Shown here: piece by piece, positions 15,956 to 24,670 of the stretch
Layout of the letters: every line of letters starts with the position of its first letter
Numbering within the stretch: the stretch's first letter is position 1
From: Archaeoglobus sp.
GTDB taxonomy: Archaea > Halobacteriota > Archaeoglobi > Archaeoglobales > Archaeoglobaceae
Length of the DNA stretch: 64,000 nt
NCBI GenBank assembly: GCA_017656505.1
Contig: JACDNU010000007.1
Coordinates: forward strand, 1-64,000
Direction: 5' to 3'
Program-made: the position numbers and the translations under genes
The notes under the pieces: generated by a model
Seen by the model: only the letters and a program-made list of their open reading frames with translations
What the model was told of the DNA's origin: nothing
Database searches by the model: none

Positions 15956-16204
15956 ATGAAGGTTGTTCCAGTGAGACTGGATGATCAAAAAATAAAAGCG
16001 TTGGATATACTTGTTAAAGCTGGGATATATAAAAACAGGAGCGATGCTTTGAGAAGAATAATAGAGAATGGAATGGAGAAAGTTGAAACCGAGATTGAGT
16101 ATCTTAAGAAAATTGATGAGATTGTTGACAGAATAATAGATTCTGAGATCGACTTTGGAGGGATGTTGAGAAAATCGGTAGATGAGGGGAGAGATAGATG
16201 GTAG
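15956..16204 (+). CDS. vapB: Ribbon-helix-helix antitoxin (VapB, CopG type)
   Basis: An 82-residue protein. The N-terminus VPVRLDDQKIKALDILVKAG, then YKNRSDALRRIIENG, is a textbook ribbon-helix-helix DNA-binding domain (first about 45 residues). The rest is an acidic helix that should wrap the toxin. It overlaps the PIN toxin gene by 7 nt. Autoregulation is likely given the repeat words at the promoter. Confidence 0.88.
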   Translation: MKVVPVRLDDQKIKALDILVKAGIYKNRSDALRRIIENGMEKVETEIEYLKKIDEIVDRIIDSEIDFGGMLRKSVDEGRDRW

Positions 16205-16689
16205 TATACATCGATACGAGCGTGATAGTATCGGCCGTCGATAAGGGGGATAAGAGAAATAAGGAAGCCGATAAGTTCCTCTTGAGAGAGAAAGATAAGG
16301 TAATCTCTCCTCTCGTACTTGTTGAAATCTTCTCAGTAGTTTCAAGGAATTATGATAAGTTAGTGTCTGCATTCGAGGTAGACATCAGTAAAGATGACTT
16401 GCCTGCGGTAATTGCAAGATTGAGTGTGAGAAAATACGGGTTAAATCTTTTCCATATTTCAGATAAAGATCTCACAATTTTTGGAGAGGTTCCAGCCGAG
16501 ATCAAGCTTGCTTTCATGCTTGCACCTAAATTAAAGCTTAGAACTTTGGATTTACTTCACTTAAGTTATGCTTGGAATTTCAAATTGAGTGGATATAATG
16601 TTGATGAATTTGCAACCTTTGATGACGAAATTTTGAGGAAAGGCGGTAGGATAGAAGAGTTAACTGGCATAAGAGTGATTGAACCCTAA
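16198..16689 (+). CDS. vapC: PIN-domain ribonuclease toxin (VapC)
   Basis: A 163-residue PIN-domain protein. The acidic metal-binding residues can be placed: Asp in YIDTSV near residue 6, Glu in LVLVEIFS near residue 45, Asp in LRTLDLLHL near residue 120, and Asp in FATFDDEIL. PIN toxins cleave RNA (tRNA or rRNA) with Mg2+. It forms a VapBC pair with the overlapping upstream antitoxin. Confidence 0.9.
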   Translation: MVVYIDTSVIVSAVDKGDKRNKEADKFLLREKDKVISPLVLVEIFSVVSRNYDKLVSAFEVDISKDDLPAVIARLSVRKYGLNLFHISDKDLTIFGEVPAEIKLAFMLAPKLKLRTLDLLHLSYAWNFKLSGYNVDEFATFDDEILRKGGRIEELTGIRVIEP

Positions 16690-17913: not shown

Positions 17914-18392
17914 TACATTTCATTGCTGCCTATTATTCTTAAACATTTGGCCGTATTCGGTTGCAATTCAGTAATCCATCGTAATTCATAGTTCTGAATC
18001 GTAGATTATAGATATAGAATTGTAAATTTGGTATTTCACTTTTAAACCGAATTGAGAAACTAATACTTAACTTAAAAATATTAAAAACATTCCCAGATCT
18101 TGAAACAAAATTAAAAGTCAAACCTAAAAACGTTCAAAGGCTTGGAAAAGAGGCATTGTCAGTACGGTTCTGACAGCGGATGGTTTTCCACCCTCAATTA
18201 AGCTTCGAACAACCCGTTATTACTCAAAGCTCAATCTTCGCCTCTAGATTTAAGTGTAAGGCGCACTATATAACACTTCTGACAGTTTAATCTTACATAC
18301 TTGTCAATACTATCTGAGTAGAATGTAATGCATCGTTTGCATCGTTTGTATCGCTTTTGCCAACCAATTCAATCCACCGAAATCTTTATTAA
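17914..18392. other. Non-coding region between divergent genes
   Basis: About 480 bp without a convincing reading frame. It contains a hairpin-capable TGTCAG/CTGACA pair around 18158-18176, later CTGACAG and TTGTCAA words, and a threefold TGCATCGTTT-like tandem repeat at about 18332-18356. Promoters for both flanking genes should lie here. Confidence 0.5.
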
Positions 18393-18418
18393 CATGTGTA
18401 AGTAAATTATTACACATG
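18393..18418. promoter_or_regulatory. 9-8-9 palindromic operator for the 18.4-20.0 kb operon
   Basis: CATGTGTAA (18393-18401) and TTACACATG (18410-18418) are perfect inverted repeats separated by 8 bp. A CTTTATTAA TATA-like box (18384-18392) sits directly upstream, so the palindrome would cover the transcription start. Size and symmetry fit ArsR/SmtB-family operators, and an ArsR-type repressor is the third gene of the operon. Confidence 0.7.
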
Positions 18419-18433
18419 AAGGAGATGATAAAC

Positions 18434-19066
18434 ATGAGGAAAGTATTGAAGTTTGGTATTGGCATGCTGATTGCAATTGCAACAATTGCAATGGCTACAG
18501 CGGCAACAGCAGTAGTTGAGAATGAAAACGGGAAGGCTTACGGAATGAAAGCATACGAAATGCTTGAAAAAGCCGAGCTGGAAAGCTATGGTGACCATTA
18601 CATCATAGTCGTCGATGGAGAAAGAGTTGGAGTGCTATGGAAAGATGTAAAGCTTGAAGATGTAACGGTTGGTGAGCCTTTTGAAGCCGAATGGGGTGTT
18701 AAAGCACCACTGCTTGTTGGAAAGGAAGTTGTAGGCCAAATATTTGTTGAAGGTAAGCCCTTTGGCTGGATGCATAGCACAGCAAATTCAGAGATGAACA
18801 GATATGGATGGCAAGGTTGTAGCTGTGACTGTAGCCGAGAGACACAATATGGCCAAAATGAATATGGGCACATGTATGGACACGGAAAGCACGGAAACTA
18901 TGGAGAATGGCAGGACATCGGCTATGGCCGACATGGTCAATATGGTCAACATAATCAACATGGCCAACATGGCCAAGACGGTCACAACCACGTGTACAGA
19001 GTTGGAGAAGGGCTGGGATGGCAAAATTCTGTAGATTGTGAACATGGTTTGGGCCGAGGAAGGTAA
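18434..19066 (+). CDS. Secreted His/Gly/Gln-rich protein, putative metal binding
   Basis: A 210-residue protein from ATG 18434, chosen because GGAGATGAT lies 6 nt upstream; ATG 18416 sits inside the operator. A signal peptide (KVLKFGIGMLIAIATIAMATAATA) covers the first 25-30 residues. A small beta-rich domain follows (HYIIVVDGERVGVLW, LLVGKEVVGQIFVEGKPFGW), then a Cys cluster GCSCDC and a low-complexity tail rich in His, Gly, Gln and Tyr (GRHGQYGQHNQHGQHGQDGH). The tail arose from tandem 9-bp CAYGGYCAA units. Extracytoplasmic metal binding is inferred from composition. Family not recognised. Confidence 0.75.
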   Translation: MRKVLKFGIGMLIAIATIAMATAATAVVENENGKAYGMKAYEMLEKAELESYGDHYIIVVDGERVGVLWKDVKLEDVTVGEPFEAEWGVKAPLLVGKEVVGQIFVEGKPFGWMHSTANSEMNRYGWQGCSCDCSRETQYGQNEYGHMYGHGKHGNYGEWQDIGYGRHGQYGQHNQHGQHGQDGHNHVYRVGEGLGWQNSVDCEHGLGRGR

Positions 19067-19104
19067 AGAATCTCCAACTTTTAATTTTTTGGGAGGTGGG
19101 AAAG

Positions 19105-19413
19105 ATGCTAAGTAGGTTAAAGACAAGATTTCTGATCTTCTGGATTATGGTTGCTAGCGGGCTTGTAACGCTAATAAGCGGATTGATACTATGGTTTGCA
19201 CCTAGGGGCGCACATTCCAGAGAAGCAATACTATACGGACTTCAAAAGAGCACATGGCTTGACATACATCCTTACTTTGCTTTGCTTGCCGTTGGAATGG
19301 TAGCGATCCATCTGGTAGATAAGTGGAGATGTCTGAAAGTATATCTCAGGTCTCCTCTCAGGAAAGAATCCTTATCTCAGGTGAAGGAGATAAAATGTGA
19401 AATTCAGATGTGA
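19105..19413 (+). CDS. DUF4405-like membrane protein, possible b-type heme binder
   Basis: A 102-residue protein from ATG 19105 with GGGAGGTGG 6 nt upstream. Two transmembrane helices are visible: WIMVASGLVTLISGLILWF and YFALLAVGMVAIHLV. The second is bracketed by two histidines (LDIHPYF and VAIHLVD) 14 residues apart, the spacing used by helices that ligate two hemes in cytochromes b. It is translated directly after the secreted His-rich protein, suggesting the two work at the same membrane face. Heme binding is inference. Confidence 0.7.
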   Translation: MLSRLKTRFLIFWIMVASGLVTLISGLILWFAPRGAHSREAILYGLQKSTWLDIHPYFALLAVGMVAIHLVDKWRCLKVYLRSPLRKESLSQVKEIKCEIQM

Positions 19414-19466
19414 AATCTAACTTTCGAATAAACTTTTTTTATTTAACTTTAAAATGATAGAATGCA

Positions 19467-19805
19467 GTGGAATTAACAGAAAAATATATGAGCTCGAAAA
19501 ATAATGTCCAAAAGGTGCCTGAATTAACCCTTCAAAGACTCGTAGCTCTCGGAGATGCGCTTTCAAACCCTCTTCGAATCAAAATACTCAAACTGCTCAT
19601 GGAAAAGGAGTGGTACGTTTATGAGATGGCCAAGGAACTATCCATTTCGAGACAACTCCTTTATCTGCATTTGAAGAAACTTGAGAAAGCAGGATTGGTT
19701 GAAAGCGATATAAGATTGGAAGAAAACAAGGCTAAGAAGTATTACTGGGCATCAGATTTCAATTTCGTCATCAGTAATGAGACTCTAAAAAAATTGGAGG
19801 TGTAG
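19467..19805 (+). CDS. ArsR-type winged-helix transcriptional regulator
   Basis: Up to 112 residues from GTG 19467; ATG 19488 is an alternative start. The winged helix is clear: LVALGDALSNPLRIKILKLL, recognition helix SISRQLLYLHLKKLEKAGLV, then a wing with KKYYWA. It lacks the CxC metal-sensing motif of classical ArsR proteins, so the signal is unknown. It is the third gene of the 18.4-20.0 kb unit and the obvious candidate to bind the palindrome at 18393-18418. A second TATA-like CTTTAAAATG at 19447-19456 could drive it separately. Confidence 0.85.
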   Translation: MELTEKYMSSKNNVQKVPELTLQRLVALGDALSNPLRIKILKLLMEKEWYVYEMAKELSISRQLLYLHLKKLEKAGLVESDIRLEENKAKKYYWASDFNFVISNETLKKLEV

Positions 19806-19808
19806 AAA

Positions 19809-20021
19809 ATGGCTGGAATGGTGGGAATGGCTGGATTGACAGATGTACTACTTGGAATGGTCGTTGGATTTGGAATTACCGCTGCAATTATGGTAATAGG
19901 CTTCTATTTGATTATGAAAACAATTAATGACCTTAGAAATTCGGTAACAAAGATTGAAAGTAGAATAGAGAATGTTGAAGGTAAGGTAAGCGACATCGCA
20001 AAGCAGCTTGAGGAAGTTTGA
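19809..20021 (+). CDS. Small membrane protein with C-terminal coiled coil
   Basis: A 70-residue protein starting 3 nt after the ArsR gene stop, with GGAGGTGTAG as Shine-Dalgarno overlapping that stop. Residues about 8-36 form one transmembrane helix (VLLGMVVGFGITAAIMVIGFY). Residues 40-70 are a heptad coiled coil (SVTKIESRIENVEGKVSDIAKQL). The architecture resembles small membrane scaffolds. No family recognised; co-regulated with the secreted and heme-like membrane proteins upstream. Confidence 0.7.
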   Translation: MAGMVGMAGLTDVLLGMVVGFGITAAIMVIGFYLIMKTINDLRNSVTKIESRIENVEGKVSDIAKQLEEV

Positions 20022-20045: not shown

Positions 20046-22865
20046 TCAATGATTCAGATAATTCCTAACCTCTTCCGTTTCAATCCAGCCTTTGTCAAGG
20101 TTTCTAATTATCTCATCGATTCTTTCTACCTGCTCAAGGATGAGCTTTGAATTCTCGCTGTCATCTATCTCAGCCAATCCGGCTATAACCATGAGCGGGT
20201 TTCTTATAGCGTCGAGGAGGTAAGCGAAGTACTCTATGTTCTTGTTTATCTGTCTGTATGCTTTTCTTTTCTGTTCTGCCAGTTCTAAAGATCTTAAGGC
20301 GAACGCAATATCGTTTGCCATCGTTTTCAGCATCTCCAGTTCATTCTCAAATGGTTTCTCTTTCTTGAAAAGGATAAGGGTGCCGTAAGAAACGGTGTCA
20401 AAGAGAGGAAGGATAATTATGTGAGAGTTTTCCTTAACGGGACAAGCCTTCTCGCAATCCATGCAGAGTTTCTCTTCACCCTCAACTCTAAAGCCGTTCA
20501 TGAATAGCTCTGTAGTAATTTCAACCGGATAGGAAATGCTCAGCCTCAATTTATCACAGTTTACATCTCCGAGAACCTTTACTCTCCCACCCTTTCTCCA
20601 AATTATTTGGCACTGGTAATTGGAAAGCTTTTTTCGAATCCTCCTTAGTATGGTTTCGCAATCGGTTTCGTGGACTATTATGTTGCTGATCTCGTTTATC
20701 GTTTTTAGAAGCATGTTCAGATTCATCAGATCGGTTACATCCTCCACCATCGCTAAGCAAAACTTTCCTTCAGGCAGCTCTAAAGGAATAAAGGTTGTGT
20801 AAAAGTATCCATCGTTGTTGTCGATAAATGAAACGTTTCTGTTCGATTCGAGTGCCTGTCTTAAATGCTTTAATCTTCTTTCTGCAACTTCCTTGGGGAA
20901 GAGATCAAAAAAGCTTTTTCCGATCGGATTTCTGCCTACGCTTCTTTCCATCGCTGGATTGCAGTCAACAACAATTCCGAACTCGTTTACAATGGCTATG
21001 AGGACTGATGAATTGCTGAAAATTTTTCTGTACTTCTCTTCAGACTTTCTGAGCTCTGTCACATCAATAAGAGTGCCAATAATTGCTGGTTTTCCTCCAA
21101 TCACAGCTCTAGAGCCATATGCCTCCACATCTCTGACCCCACCATCTTTGGTCATTATCTTTAGCGTATAGTTTATGGCCACGCTTTCACCTGAGAGCCT
21201 CTTTCTTATGTTGTTCTCCACTAATTCCCTGTAATCTGGATGAATAACGTGTGTAACCTTTTTGTTTATCAACTCCTCTGCTTCAAATCCGCAAATTTCG
21301 GCGAGCTTTGGATTCACGTACTTTAAGACCCCATCCTGAATTAGGTAGACCCCAGCAACCGATCTCTCCACCAGACTCCTGAACTTGTTCTCACTCTCTT
21401 TCAAAACCTCTTCCATCCTTTTTCTTTCGGTAATGTCCCTCCCAATTACATGCAGGAGGGGTTCGCCATCATAAATGATGTTTGCTGTCGCCTCAATCCA
21501 CAGCTTTTTACCATCAATTGAAGCAAGTACCTCCACCCTTTCTGGCCCTTTTTCACCTTTAATTAGCTCTTTTATCCTTTCAATCCACTCTCCGCTAACG
21601 AAATCGGAAATTCTTTTCCCAATCAATTCTTCCCTTTTCAGCCCTGAAACTTCAAGAGCTTTCCTGTTGCACTCCCTAATTCTTCCTTCAGCATCTATTA
21701 CGACGACTATATCTTCAACACTGTTCCATAGGTTCCTGAATTTCTCTTCAGACTTTTTAATTTGCATTTCCAGCCTTTTCCTTTCTGTTATGTCAATGAT
21801 ATTGCTTAAAACCGCCTTTTTCCCGTTGTAATTGATTTTTACTGCATTGACTAGAGCCCATCCTTCATCTCCACCTTTTGTGATGTACTTCAATTCAACG
21901 TTCGTAACCTTTTTTCCATTCATTGCATCTGTGTATGCTTTGTTTGCCACCTTTCTGAACTTCTTTGGTATTAACTCAACCAGTCTCTTGCCTATCAGCT
22001 CATCCCTTTTGTACCCTGTTACTTCCATAACCTTATTAGAGTAGACGATTTTACCATCCTGGATCACGAGTATACCTTGCAGTGACTCCTCTGAGAATTC
22101 TCTGAACCTCTCTTCAGACTCCTTTAGTCTTTTTTCGAGCAATTTATTTTCTGTTATGTCGTTAACAATGCAGAATCCAGCTGGTCTTCCTTTGTAGACC
22201 GTGCTTGAGAAAGAAAAAATCCCCCACCTTAATTCCCCTTGTTTCGTTAGGTAAGGGATCTCATACACTGAAGGTTCGACTCTCTCCCCTTTCTGCCTCT
22301 TTCTTCCCCTCTCTTTTACTGTCTCCTTCATTTCTGGATGAACGAGATCCCAGAAATTCATTTTAAGGAACTCTTCTCTCTTGTATCCCGTTAACCTCTC
22401 GACTATTGGATTGACGTAAACGAACTTATCATCCTGAAAAATGAAGATCCCGGATATGGCGTTCTCTGCAAGAACTCTGAAGACTTTTTCACTCTCCTCC
22501 AATCTCTTTTTTACCTCTTTCATTTCTGTTATGTCAAAAACGGTCCCAAGAATGAGTCGATTCTCGAGAACAACTGGTCTGAAAGCAATCCATCTCATGC
22601 TGCCATCTTTCCTTATAATTCTCAGTTCGAGTTCATCGGGTGGATTTTCCCCCCTAAAGGCCATCTCACTGTATTCAGAGATTCTCTCCCTGTCTCTAGG
22701 GTGGAGCAGGAGGAAAGGATCAAGATCCGAAAACTCATGCTTTGAATAACCGGAAATCTCCTCAATGGTTTTGTTTACATAAATGAACTTTCCATCCTTG
22801 AAGATGTAGATTCCAGCCCTGACATTGTCGAGTATTCTCTCGAAATCGAGGTGGGGGATCGCCAT
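20046..22865 (-). CDS. Multi-PAS/GAF sensor protein lacking a kinase ATPase domain
   Basis: A 939-residue protein with six PAS domains in a row, each starting with a (K/R)FR or similar helix and a core like GIYIFKDGKFIYVNKT, starting near residues 10, 130, 250, 370, 495 and 615. A GAF-like domain (about 735-870) contains CMDCEKAC. The last 60 residues resemble a HisKA helix, YLLDAIRNPLMVIAGLAE, but where kinases have His-Asp this reads Asp-Ala, and no HATPase domain follows. It has no transmembrane segment, so it should be cytoplasmic. It lies 92 nt downstream of a complete PAS kinase gene on the same strand. Confidence 0.85.
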   Translation of the reverse strand: MAIPHLDFERILDNVRAGIYIFKDGKFIYVNKTIEEISGYSKHEFSDLDPFLLLHPRDRERISEYSEMAFRGENPPDELELRIIRKDGSMRWIAFRPVVLENRLILGTVFDITEMKEVKKRLEESEKVFRVLAENAISGIFIFQDDKFVYVNPIVERLTGYKREEFLKMNFWDLVHPEMKETVKERGRKRQKGERVEPSVYEIPYLTKQGELRWGIFSFSSTVYKGRPAGFCIVNDITENKLLEKRLKESEERFREFSEESLQGILVIQDGKIVYSNKVMEVTGYKRDELIGKRLVELIPKKFRKVANKAYTDAMNGKKVTNVELKYITKGGDEGWALVNAVKINYNGKKAVLSNIIDITERKRLEMQIKKSEEKFRNLWNSVEDIVVVIDAEGRIRECNRKALEVSGLKREELIGKRISDFVSGEWIERIKELIKGEKGPERVEVLASIDGKKLWIEATANIIYDGEPLLHVIGRDITERKRMEEVLKESENKFRSLVERSVAGVYLIQDGVLKYVNPKLAEICGFEAEELINKKVTHVIHPDYRELVENNIRKRLSGESVAINYTLKIMTKDGGVRDVEAYGSRAVIGGKPAIIGTLIDVTELRKSEEKYRKIFSNSSVLIAIVNEFGIVVDCNPAMERSVGRNPIGKSFFDLFPKEVAERRLKHLRQALESNRNVSFIDNNDGYFYTTFIPLELPEGKFCLAMVEDVTDLMNLNMLLKTINEISNIIVHETDCETILRRIRKKLSNYQCQIIWRKGGRVKVLGDVNCDKLRLSISYPVEITTELFMNGFRVEGEEKLCMDCEKACPVKENSHIIILPLFDTVSYGTLILFKKEKPFENELEMLKTMANDIAFALRSLELAEQKRKAYRQINKNIEYFAYLLDAIRNPLMVIAGLAEIDDSENSKLILEQVERIDEIIRNLDKGWIETEEVRNYLNH

Positions 22866-22947
22866 TGGGCTTGTAAAGACTTTGAATTATATTAATGTTA
22901 GAGAAATTCTATGATGAGGATAACCGAAAATCGAACTTTCCAAAAAA

Positions 22948-22967
22948 CTATTCAGAACTATTCAGAA
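22948..22967. repeat. 10-bp tandem duplication across the kinase stop codon
   Basis: CTATTCAGAA stands at 22948-22957 and 22958-22967, with a degenerate third copy after it. On the minus strand each copy reads TTCTGAATAG, and the TAG at 22958-22960 is the stop of the PAS histidine kinase. Confidence 0.9.
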
Positions 22968-24670
22968 CATTTCAGCTTTACAACAAAAATGCTGCCGCTT
23001 GGTTCGTTGTTCTCCACCCAGACCTCGCCGCCATACTTTTCAACAACGCTCTTGACTATGTACAATCCCAGCCCCGTATGGCCTGTTTTTCCGTACTTGA
23101 AGCCCTCCTTGAAAATATGCTCCTTAATTTCTTCGGGAATACCTTTTCCGTAATCAACAACCCTCATCTCACAGAATCCGTTGAGCTTTTTCAACTTAAT
23201 GTCTATTCTATCGCTTCCCGAGTGGATTACGGCATTTTTTATTAAATTATTCAGGACCGAAGTGATTGCATCATCTGCCAGAACTTTGCATCCCCCCTCT
23301 ATTCCTATTTCAATATCGTAGCTTTTCCTTATCTCCTCTATGACATCCCTCAAATTGATTGATCTAAGTTTTCCGGTAGTTATAACCGATTCGAGCTCTC
23401 TCATATCATTTATAAGCTGGATACTCCTTTCTCCAGCCTTTATTGCATCTTCGAGGAAGCTTTCATCCTTTGTAGCTTTGAAGACCTCTATTGCTCCTAG
23501 GATGGCTGAGATGTCGTTTGAGAGGTCATGCCTAAGTATTTTATTAAGAAGTCTGAGCTTCTCGTTCAGGTCAACCAGCCTTTCCTCCATCTTCTTCCTT
23601 TCCGTTATGTCCATGATCATTCCGGAAATGTACTCTCCATCGAGCACAGCACTTATGAGCACTTCTATAACATTTCCAGAATTGGTAATAAGTTCAGTTT
23701 CGAATCCTACAACTCTGCCATCCTTTTTCAGAATCTCAATTAGCCTATCCCTATCCTCTTTTTTTACGTAGAGATCTCTTGGATCGAGCCTAAAAGTCTC
23801 TTCTTTGGAGTGTCCCAGCATTTCTATGAGGGCCTGATTCGCGAAAATTATTCTGCCGTCGATGGTAGTTTTGTAAACCCCTATTAAAGCGTTCTCAACT
23901 AAATTTCTGTACTCTTCCTCCGACTTTCTGAGCTTCTCCTCCAGCTCTTTTAGCTTGGTGATGTCGTACCAATTTCCTAAAACAGCGGGTCTGGAGTCGT
24001 AAATTATTCTTGTTACACTCATTAGTACCCATCTTTTTCTTCCGTCCTTCGTTCTGTATTTTACCTCCAAATTGACCTTTTTCCCGTTTAAAGCCTTCTC
24101 ATAGGCCTCCATAGCCTTATCTCTGAATTCATCCGTAACCAGAGAGAATGGCTCTATTTGCATAAGCTCTTCGAGGGAATACCCGGTAGCGATTTGGACT
24201 ATTTTGTTGATGTACTTGAACTTTCCATCCTGTATCACAAAAATTCCAGGAAGAGATTCTTCGGCAATGGTTCTAAACTTCTCTTCAGATTCTTTAAGTC
24301 TTCTTTCTAGCTCTTTTCTCTGGGTTATGTCTCTAAAAATTCCGAGACAGCCCTTAAACTTACCATCTTCTTTTTTCCCAATCACATGGCCTTCTACTTC
24401 TATTTTCCTGCCGTTCTTGGTAATAAAGACGTTTTCGATTCTTATCTCCTTTCCTTGGGTTACTTGTCGGAAAACCTCCTCGCATGTTGTGTCATCGGGA
24501 GGGAGGATGTCATAGATCGTGAGTTTTTCGATTTCATCATCTCTAAACCCGAAAACTTCCTTCCACTTTCTGTTAACGTAAACGAATTTCTTTTCTTGGT
24601 TGAGGGAGAATACTATATCTTCGGTATTTTCAGCCAGATCCTTTAGCATCTCTAGTGGAAGTTCTTTCAT
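22958..24670 (-). CDS. PAS-domain histidine kinase
   Basis: A 570-residue cytoplasmic kinase. Three PAS domains (starting near residues 8, 130 and 250) precede the phosphoacceptor helix ILRHDLSNDISAILGAIEVF near residue 375. The HATPase domain has the N box NNLIKNAVIHS, the G1 box DYGKGIPEE and the G2 box TGHTGLGLYIVKSVVEKYGG. No response regulator is adjacent, as is usual for archaeal PAS kinases. The signal is not evident. The stop codon is inside a perfect 10-bp tandem duplication at 22948-22967. Confidence 0.92.
   Translation of the reverse strand: MKELPLEMLKDLAENTEDIVFSLNQEKKFVYVNRKWKEVFGFRDDEIEKLTIYDILPPDDTTCEEVFRQVTQGKEIRIENVFITKNGRKIEVEGHVIGKKEDGKFKGCLGIFRDITQRKELERRLKESEEKFRTIAEESLPGIFVIQDGKFKYINKIVQIATGYSLEELMQIEPFSLVTDEFRDKAMEAYEKALNGKKVNLEVKYRTKDGRKRWVLMSVTRIIYDSRPAVLGNWYDITKLKELEEKLRKSEEEYRNLVENALIGVYKTTIDGRIIFANQALIEMLGHSKEETFRLDPRDLYVKKEDRDRLIEILKKDGRVVGFETELITNSGNVIEVLISAVLDGEYISGMIMDITERKKMEERLVDLNEKLRLLNKILRHDLSNDISAILGAIEVFKATKDESFLEDAIKAGERSIQLINDMRELESVITTGKLRSINLRDVIEEIRKSYDIEIGIEGGCKVLADDAITSVLNNLIKNAVIHSGSDRIDIKLKKLNGFCEMRVVDYGKGIPEEIKEHIFKEGFKYGKTGHTGLGLYIVKSVVEKYGGEVWVENNEPSGSIFVVKLKCSE

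Follow-up and report, generated by a model that had tools for sequence, protein, structure and literature searches.

A putative ArsR-type repressor, its putative operator and a one-span membrane partner in Archaeoglobus: a conserved archaeal module over a predicted extracytoplasmic metal or redox regulon

What controls a tightly packed set of genes for a secreted protein, a half-sized cytochrome b, an ArsR-type regulator and a small membrane protein, and in answer to which signal, was the question raised by this locus in a 64,000-nucleotide stretch of Archaeoglobus DNA (the window, meaning that whole stretch). We assign a probability of roughly 0.7 to the reading that this locus represents, in Archaeoglobus, a conserved archaeal module in which a ligand-free ArsR repressor, probably signaled from the membrane, governs an extracytoplasmic metal or redox regulon.

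Architecture of the locus

A BRE/TATA core promoter (CCGAAATCTTTATTAA, positions 18377 to 18392, forward strand) was recognized from its sequence, and equivalent elements stand directly 5′ of the operator in relatives. Directly behind the TATA box lies the putative operator CATGTGTAA-N8-TTACACATG (18393 to 18418); by inspection its arms (18393-18401 and 18410-18418) form an exact dyad with a spacer of 8 that covers the expected transcription start, as the sequence-only reading of this DNA had claimed. The first gene (18434 to 19066, forward strand; preferred start ATG at 18434, Shine-Dalgarno AGGAG at 18420-18424) encodes a secreted protein with a signal peptide, an α+β domain of ∼80 residues, a CSCDCS cluster and a His/Gly/Gln-rich tail. 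On the same strand follow a DUF4405 half-cytochrome b (19105 to 19413; PF14358) of two helices, the second with two His 14 residues apart, an ArsR-type winged-helix regulator (19488 to 19805; PF01022, supported by orthologs) and a 70-residue protein recognized as the ArsR partner by its adjacency to arsR (TM-CC; 19809 to 20021), with one transmembrane helix, predicted to be N-out, and a coiled coil predicted to be cytoplasmic. Every element described earlier was present: the secreted protein with its Cys cluster and repeat tail, DUF4405, ArsR, the 70-residue coiled-coil protein and the dyad. The regulator probably starts at ATG 19488 and not at the first possible GTG (19467); the protein of a relative (G032) begins MSSK.

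The four genes had also been read as one operon. Their types and order stand, whereas their transcription as a single unit is uncertain, because a TATA-like stretch without a dyad precedes the window arsR, most Thermococcal arsR genes have such a stretch of their own (40 of 47 loci across Archaeoglobales and Thermococcales, scored with a loose motif), and the arsR-TM-CC pair of one genome (G013) lies 120 kb away from the secreted gene.

Two other gene groups were noted in the window. A ribbon-helix-helix-like and PIN-domain-like pair (15956-16689, forward strand) looks like a VapBC toxin-antitoxin system, judged by appearance only. Two long adjoining multi-PAS sensor proteins of 939 and 570 residues, the second with a kinase-like end, are encoded at 20046-24670 on the reverse strand; genes similar to this pair adjoin the same locus elsewhere (L041).

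Conservation of the palindrome and the genes behind it

The window contained seven perfect 9-bp dyads with spacers of ≤20, compared with 5 to 12 in 10 Markov shuffles, and significance of the dyad by itself was rejected on this count; the significance of the putative operator comes from its phylogenetic conservation. Promoter alignment gave the consensus CATRYGTAA-N8-TTACRYATG behind a TATA box in relatives, and a scan of the 2.52-Mb genome returned the window dyad as the only site at ≤2 mismatches. Nine of 57 Archaeoglobales genomes, that of the window included, encode an ArsR ortholog (56-80% identity to the window protein); sites with ≤1 mismatch were found in eight of these and in none of the 48 genomes without an ortholog, and the ninth ArsR-bearing genome (G011) has a site with two mismatches (site × ArsR 8/0/1/48, Fisher p 5e-9). 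The 94 Thermococcales genomes yielded ArsR orthologs in 61, ≤1-mismatch sites in 62 and no match at all to a reversed-pattern control; the site coincided with ArsR (59/3/2/30, p 8e-19) and with DUF2202 (59/3/1/31). Both p values ignore shared ancestry and are inflated by it, and several genomes are incomplete assemblies. Screening 394 genomes across the phylum revealed further sites.

The TATA hexamer starts about 8 bp 5′ of the site in most Archaeoglobales, the window included, and mostly 16-17 bp 5′ of it in Thermococcales. A site over the transcription start, behind the TATA box, is the established place of an archaeal repressor, so the position of the operator implies repression; this remains an inference, and activation has not been ruled out by binding, expression or deletion data, of which there are none.

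We sorted 61 distinct sites accompanied by a TATA-like element from Archaeoglobales and Thermococcales by their first gene, and 60 preceded one of four families: DUF2202 (34), the secreted domain (15), DUF4405 (8) and a small conserved family (3; two were classified and one of two unclassified sites was assigned on inspection, the other being a palindrome that had been assigned to the wrong strand). Genes for the first three families, together with the adjoining TM-CC, also recur around ArsR in loci of both orders. In a complete chromosome (G026) the two sites found are 440 kb apart, one before secreted-arsR-TM-CC and one, with 2 mismatches, before DUF4405-DUF2202; G013 has just one site, in front of a secreted gene that stands alone, 120 kb away from arsR. 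Comparative evidence of this kind shows several putative targets far from arsR, i.e., a regulon in trans. No site is visible in front of the DUF2202 genes of three genomes (G011, G013 and G016), though each encodes the ArsR, and the window genome lacks DUF2202.

The small target family (three Thermococcal loci, unlinked; about 100 residues, MTVGVxRV...VPVRGFLL...) has no Pfam match. In three Thermococcal loci arsR has its own TATA followed by one half-site (TTATGTAA/TCATGTAA), and a second dyad is present at the arsR promoter of G002 and G032; these half-sites and second dyads suggest weak autoregulation of arsR. The ArsR and secreted protein of G026 (locus L048) are closer to the Thermococcal versions than to those of other Archaeoglobales, which suggests horizontal transfer.

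The window secreted protein has no Pfam match. Its domain family is common to Archaeoglobales and Thermococcales, and Thermococci also have a version without a signal peptide. An AF2 model of the domain (core pLDDT about 91-93) had no PDB or viral fold match at E≤0.001, and no structural relative of known function was found. The genomes of family f5 (including G477), which we take to be Methanosarcinaceae, show the order operator, secreted PepSY-like Gly/Tyr-rich protein, one or two TM-CC, ArsR; the PepSY match, obtained with a relative of this protein, was only below the cut-off. Profile comparison gave no support for homology of the window domain with the Methanosarcinaceae protein, and a second structure model (pLDDT 49) was too poor for a fold search. 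One Methanosarcina genome has a nicotianamine-synthase-family gene (PF03059, E 1e-30) directly 3′ of arsR.

DUF2202, a Pfam family with solved structures (MJ0754), is presumably ferritin-like by the nature of the family. A ferritin-like protein reported in a Thermococcal neighborhood (PMC5898192) also served for this assignment. Neither DUF2202 nor MJ0754 was mentioned in the open-access literature searched, subscription papers and preprints lying outside the search. The window DUF4405 protein met its family cut-off (PF14358, E 3e-11; 44.1 bits versus 26.7), and heme binding is inferred for it by analogy with a bacterial DUF4405 protein for which heme b binding has been demonstrated (PMC11334425). 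A role in extracytoplasmic metal or redox handling is indicated, through families and composition only, by the ferritin-like targets and the His/Cys-rich tails.

Conservation had been proposed as the measure of the sequence-only reading, which withstood all three of the checks set for it. The palindrome is kept in relatives according to both the promoter alignment and the genome scans, all four window gene types occur together in three of them (G020, G021 and G002), and the two DUF4405 histidines, 14 residues apart, are invariant in 28 of 28 distinct sequences collected. The target families agree with the ligand-induced extracytoplasmic metal or redox system of that reading, but an inducing ligand has not been shown, and we found no expression data on the module.

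The regulator, its membrane partner and its putative recognition of the operator

The window ArsR met the curated cut-off of PF01022 (E 3e-12; 46.6 bits versus 22) and fell short of that for ArsR/SmtB metalloregulators (NF033788; 46.3 bits versus 55). With no Cys and a single His it fails the Cys/His metal-site criterion, in agreement with the earlier remark that the usual metal motif is missing. The TM-CC, a one-span coiled-coil protein of 65-80 residues, adjoins arsR in nearly all loci of Archaeoglobales, Thermococcales and Methanosarcinaceae. It lies downstream of arsR in the first two groups, and upstream in Methanosarcinaceae and in a divergent Archaeoglobales clade (g11/g12). Its N-terminal side lacks Lys and Arg in 12 of 12 representatives, so the positive-inside rule predicts an N-out/C-in topology with a cytoplasmic coiled coil. 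The pairing of the putative regulator with TM-CC is shown by comparative evidence, and membrane signaling by TM-CC is inferred. We favor capture of the repressor by this partner because the window ArsR lacks Cys, TM-CC is its constant neighbor, and SdpI/SdpR provide a precedent.

Five loci of the divergent g11/g12 clade (ArsR helix SKPL..SH), with TM-CC upstream of arsR, have no palindrome, and DUF2202 is often encoded elsewhere in these genomes. In family f7, perfect operators, sometimes two per contig, lie near clusters of secreted proteins that resemble one another (L206, L207, L208 and L211), and the genomes encode an SRPLLYLHL ArsR; no TM-CC was recognized in them, including at three loci with both operator and ArsR (L206, L207 and L211).

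Direct sensing of a metal, thiol or small molecule is the rule for most ArsR proteins, and ArsR might do so here, with TM-CC as a further effector such as an assembly factor or membrane anchor. TM-CC appears from gene order to be co-transcribed with the targets in Methanosarcinaceae, and some Thermococci encode a TM-CC-like paralog directly after DUF4405, as such an effector might be. This explanation must also accommodate a window ArsR without Cys, a family without a conserved Cys/His site, whose only invariant His sits in the recognition helix, and a TM-CC that stays with arsR even where the secreted target gene is separate (G013); we consider it unlikely, though it keeps some standing. Since the Thermococcal ArsR proteins carry one Cys each, direct redox sensing there is not excluded.

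The strongest evidence that ArsR may read the operator is co-variation of its recognition helix with the half-site. The window helix is SRQLLYLHL. Methanosarcinaceae genera whose helix is SRQVLYLHL almost always retain GTAA in one or both half-sites, and those with SRQV(V/I)(N/Q/D)LHL have half-sites CATATGTAG/CTACATATG; helix and half-site thus change together within this family, Tyr going with GTAA and Asn, Gln or Asp with GTAG. Half-site position 9 was A 73/G 12/C 1 with xYLHL helices versus G 42/A 0/T 2 with N/Q/D-LHL helices (p 5e-23, ancestry ignored). This count covered 65 sites, one of which (L045) was mispicked by the script, and the N/Q/D-LHL class is confined to some related Methanosarcinaceae genera.

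Co-occurrence alone cannot separate a regulator from a target, and the site could belong to another transcription factor that ArsR accompanies only through a common gene set. We judge this improbable, given that helix residue and half-site base vary jointly, no regulator gene besides arsR adjoins the targets consistently, and no site at ≤1 mismatch occurs in genomes whose only ArsR has the divergent SKPL helix. An RNA hairpin or leader element, conceivable since the palindrome lies in the 5′ leader and could fold in the window into a 9-bp stem capped by an 8-nt loop, can be set aside almost entirely: the half-sites co-vary with the ArsR helix, the expected start inside the site leaves the left arm untranscribed, and an A·C mismatch at sense-RNA position 4 in 27 of 64 instances means that the stem is not conserved. 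Initially called an inference, the regulator-operator link now has strong support from co-occurrence, from targets in trans and from the joint variation of helix and half-site. The putative operator, its pairing with the regulator and the regulon are accordingly shown at the level of comparative genomics, no binding, expression or deletion data being at hand.

Under the preferred reading, membrane-signaled repression by a ligand-free ArsR, a minimal winged-helix dimer would bind CATRYGTAA-N8-TTACRYATG where it overlaps the transcription start, immediately downstream of the TATA box, and repress genes for exported redox or metal proteins. In the window these would be the secreted His/Cys-rich protein and the DUF4405 cytochrome b with its two helices; in other genomes they would also include ferritin-like proteins of the DUF2202 family or PepSY-like secreted proteins. 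ArsR would itself have no recognizable ligand site, and TM-CC would probably take up an envelope signal and pull the repressor off the DNA to the membrane, as SdpI captures SdpR. That the signal is a metal or an oxidant is inferred. The fuller proposal, in which one-span TM-CC serves a ligand-free ArsR as its envelope sensor, the two making up a kinase-free transmembrane pair that extends from Thermococcales to Methanosarcina over an extracytoplasmic iron, heme or metal system, with a change of helix specificity readable from genomes, is one that we could see falling either way.

Relation to known systems

The ways in which archaea detect conditions beyond their membrane without the help of two-component systems are poorly understood, and the module bears on this question. 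Its small size, defined operator and regulon, and occurrence in genera with established genetics (Thermococcus and Methanosarcina) make it directly testable, and it places DUF2202, archaeal DUF4405 and the secreted domain, which lacks a Pfam family and a PDB fold match, in a functional context for the first time.

The closest solved winged-helix relatives by sequence are the Phr and PH1932-type archaeal ArsR proteins (2p4w, 1uly), which are longer than the window ArsR (Phr score 37.6 bits versus a cut-off of 320) and for which we know of no membrane partner. The DUF4405 protein shares PF14358 and conserved heme-ligand His with the DUF4405/FezC heme b cytochromes (PMC11334425); unlike the FezC type it is an archaeal two-helix half-protein, and no ApbE gene was noticed in the loci examined. 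In Bacillus subtilis the ArsR-family autorepressor SdpR is sequestered by the membrane protein SdpI (PMC1626106). The window locus likewise pairs an ArsR-family regulator with a membrane protein, and sequestration is only inferred; SdpI is a polytopic immunity protein, whereas TM-CC is predicted to cross the membrane once and has a coiled coil, the targets differ, and the window ArsR reached only 31 of the 100 bits required by the SdpR model (NF033789).

The sequence-only reading had called the system undescribed. This does not hold for the Thermococcal gene neighborhood, noted in 2015, reportedly by Makarova and colleagues. That account covers CL1_0239-CL1_0246 (arCOG04002, arCOG03957, arCOG01679, arCOG08354 and arCOG07800), proposes iron-dependent electron transfer and, like the present loci, brings together DUF4405, ferritin-like, ArsR, coiled-coil and secreted proteins (PMC5898192); in its available part it deals with Thermococci only and gives no operator, regulon or ArsR/coiled-coil pairing. 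The gene types of the arCOG04002 neighborhood occur in Thermococcal and several Archaeoglobales loci, matched by type and not by arCOG identity, and the window genome has no DUF2202 to complete the set. The module arCOGs appeared only in that paper among the open-access literature searched, and no report of the operator, regulon, ArsR/TM-CC pairing or wider range was found there, subscription papers and preprints not being covered. Within those limits, the putative operator and trans regulon, the ArsR/TM-CC pairing, the extension to Archaeoglobales and Methanosarcinaceae and the co-variation of specificity are new relative to the Thermococcal neighborhood already known.
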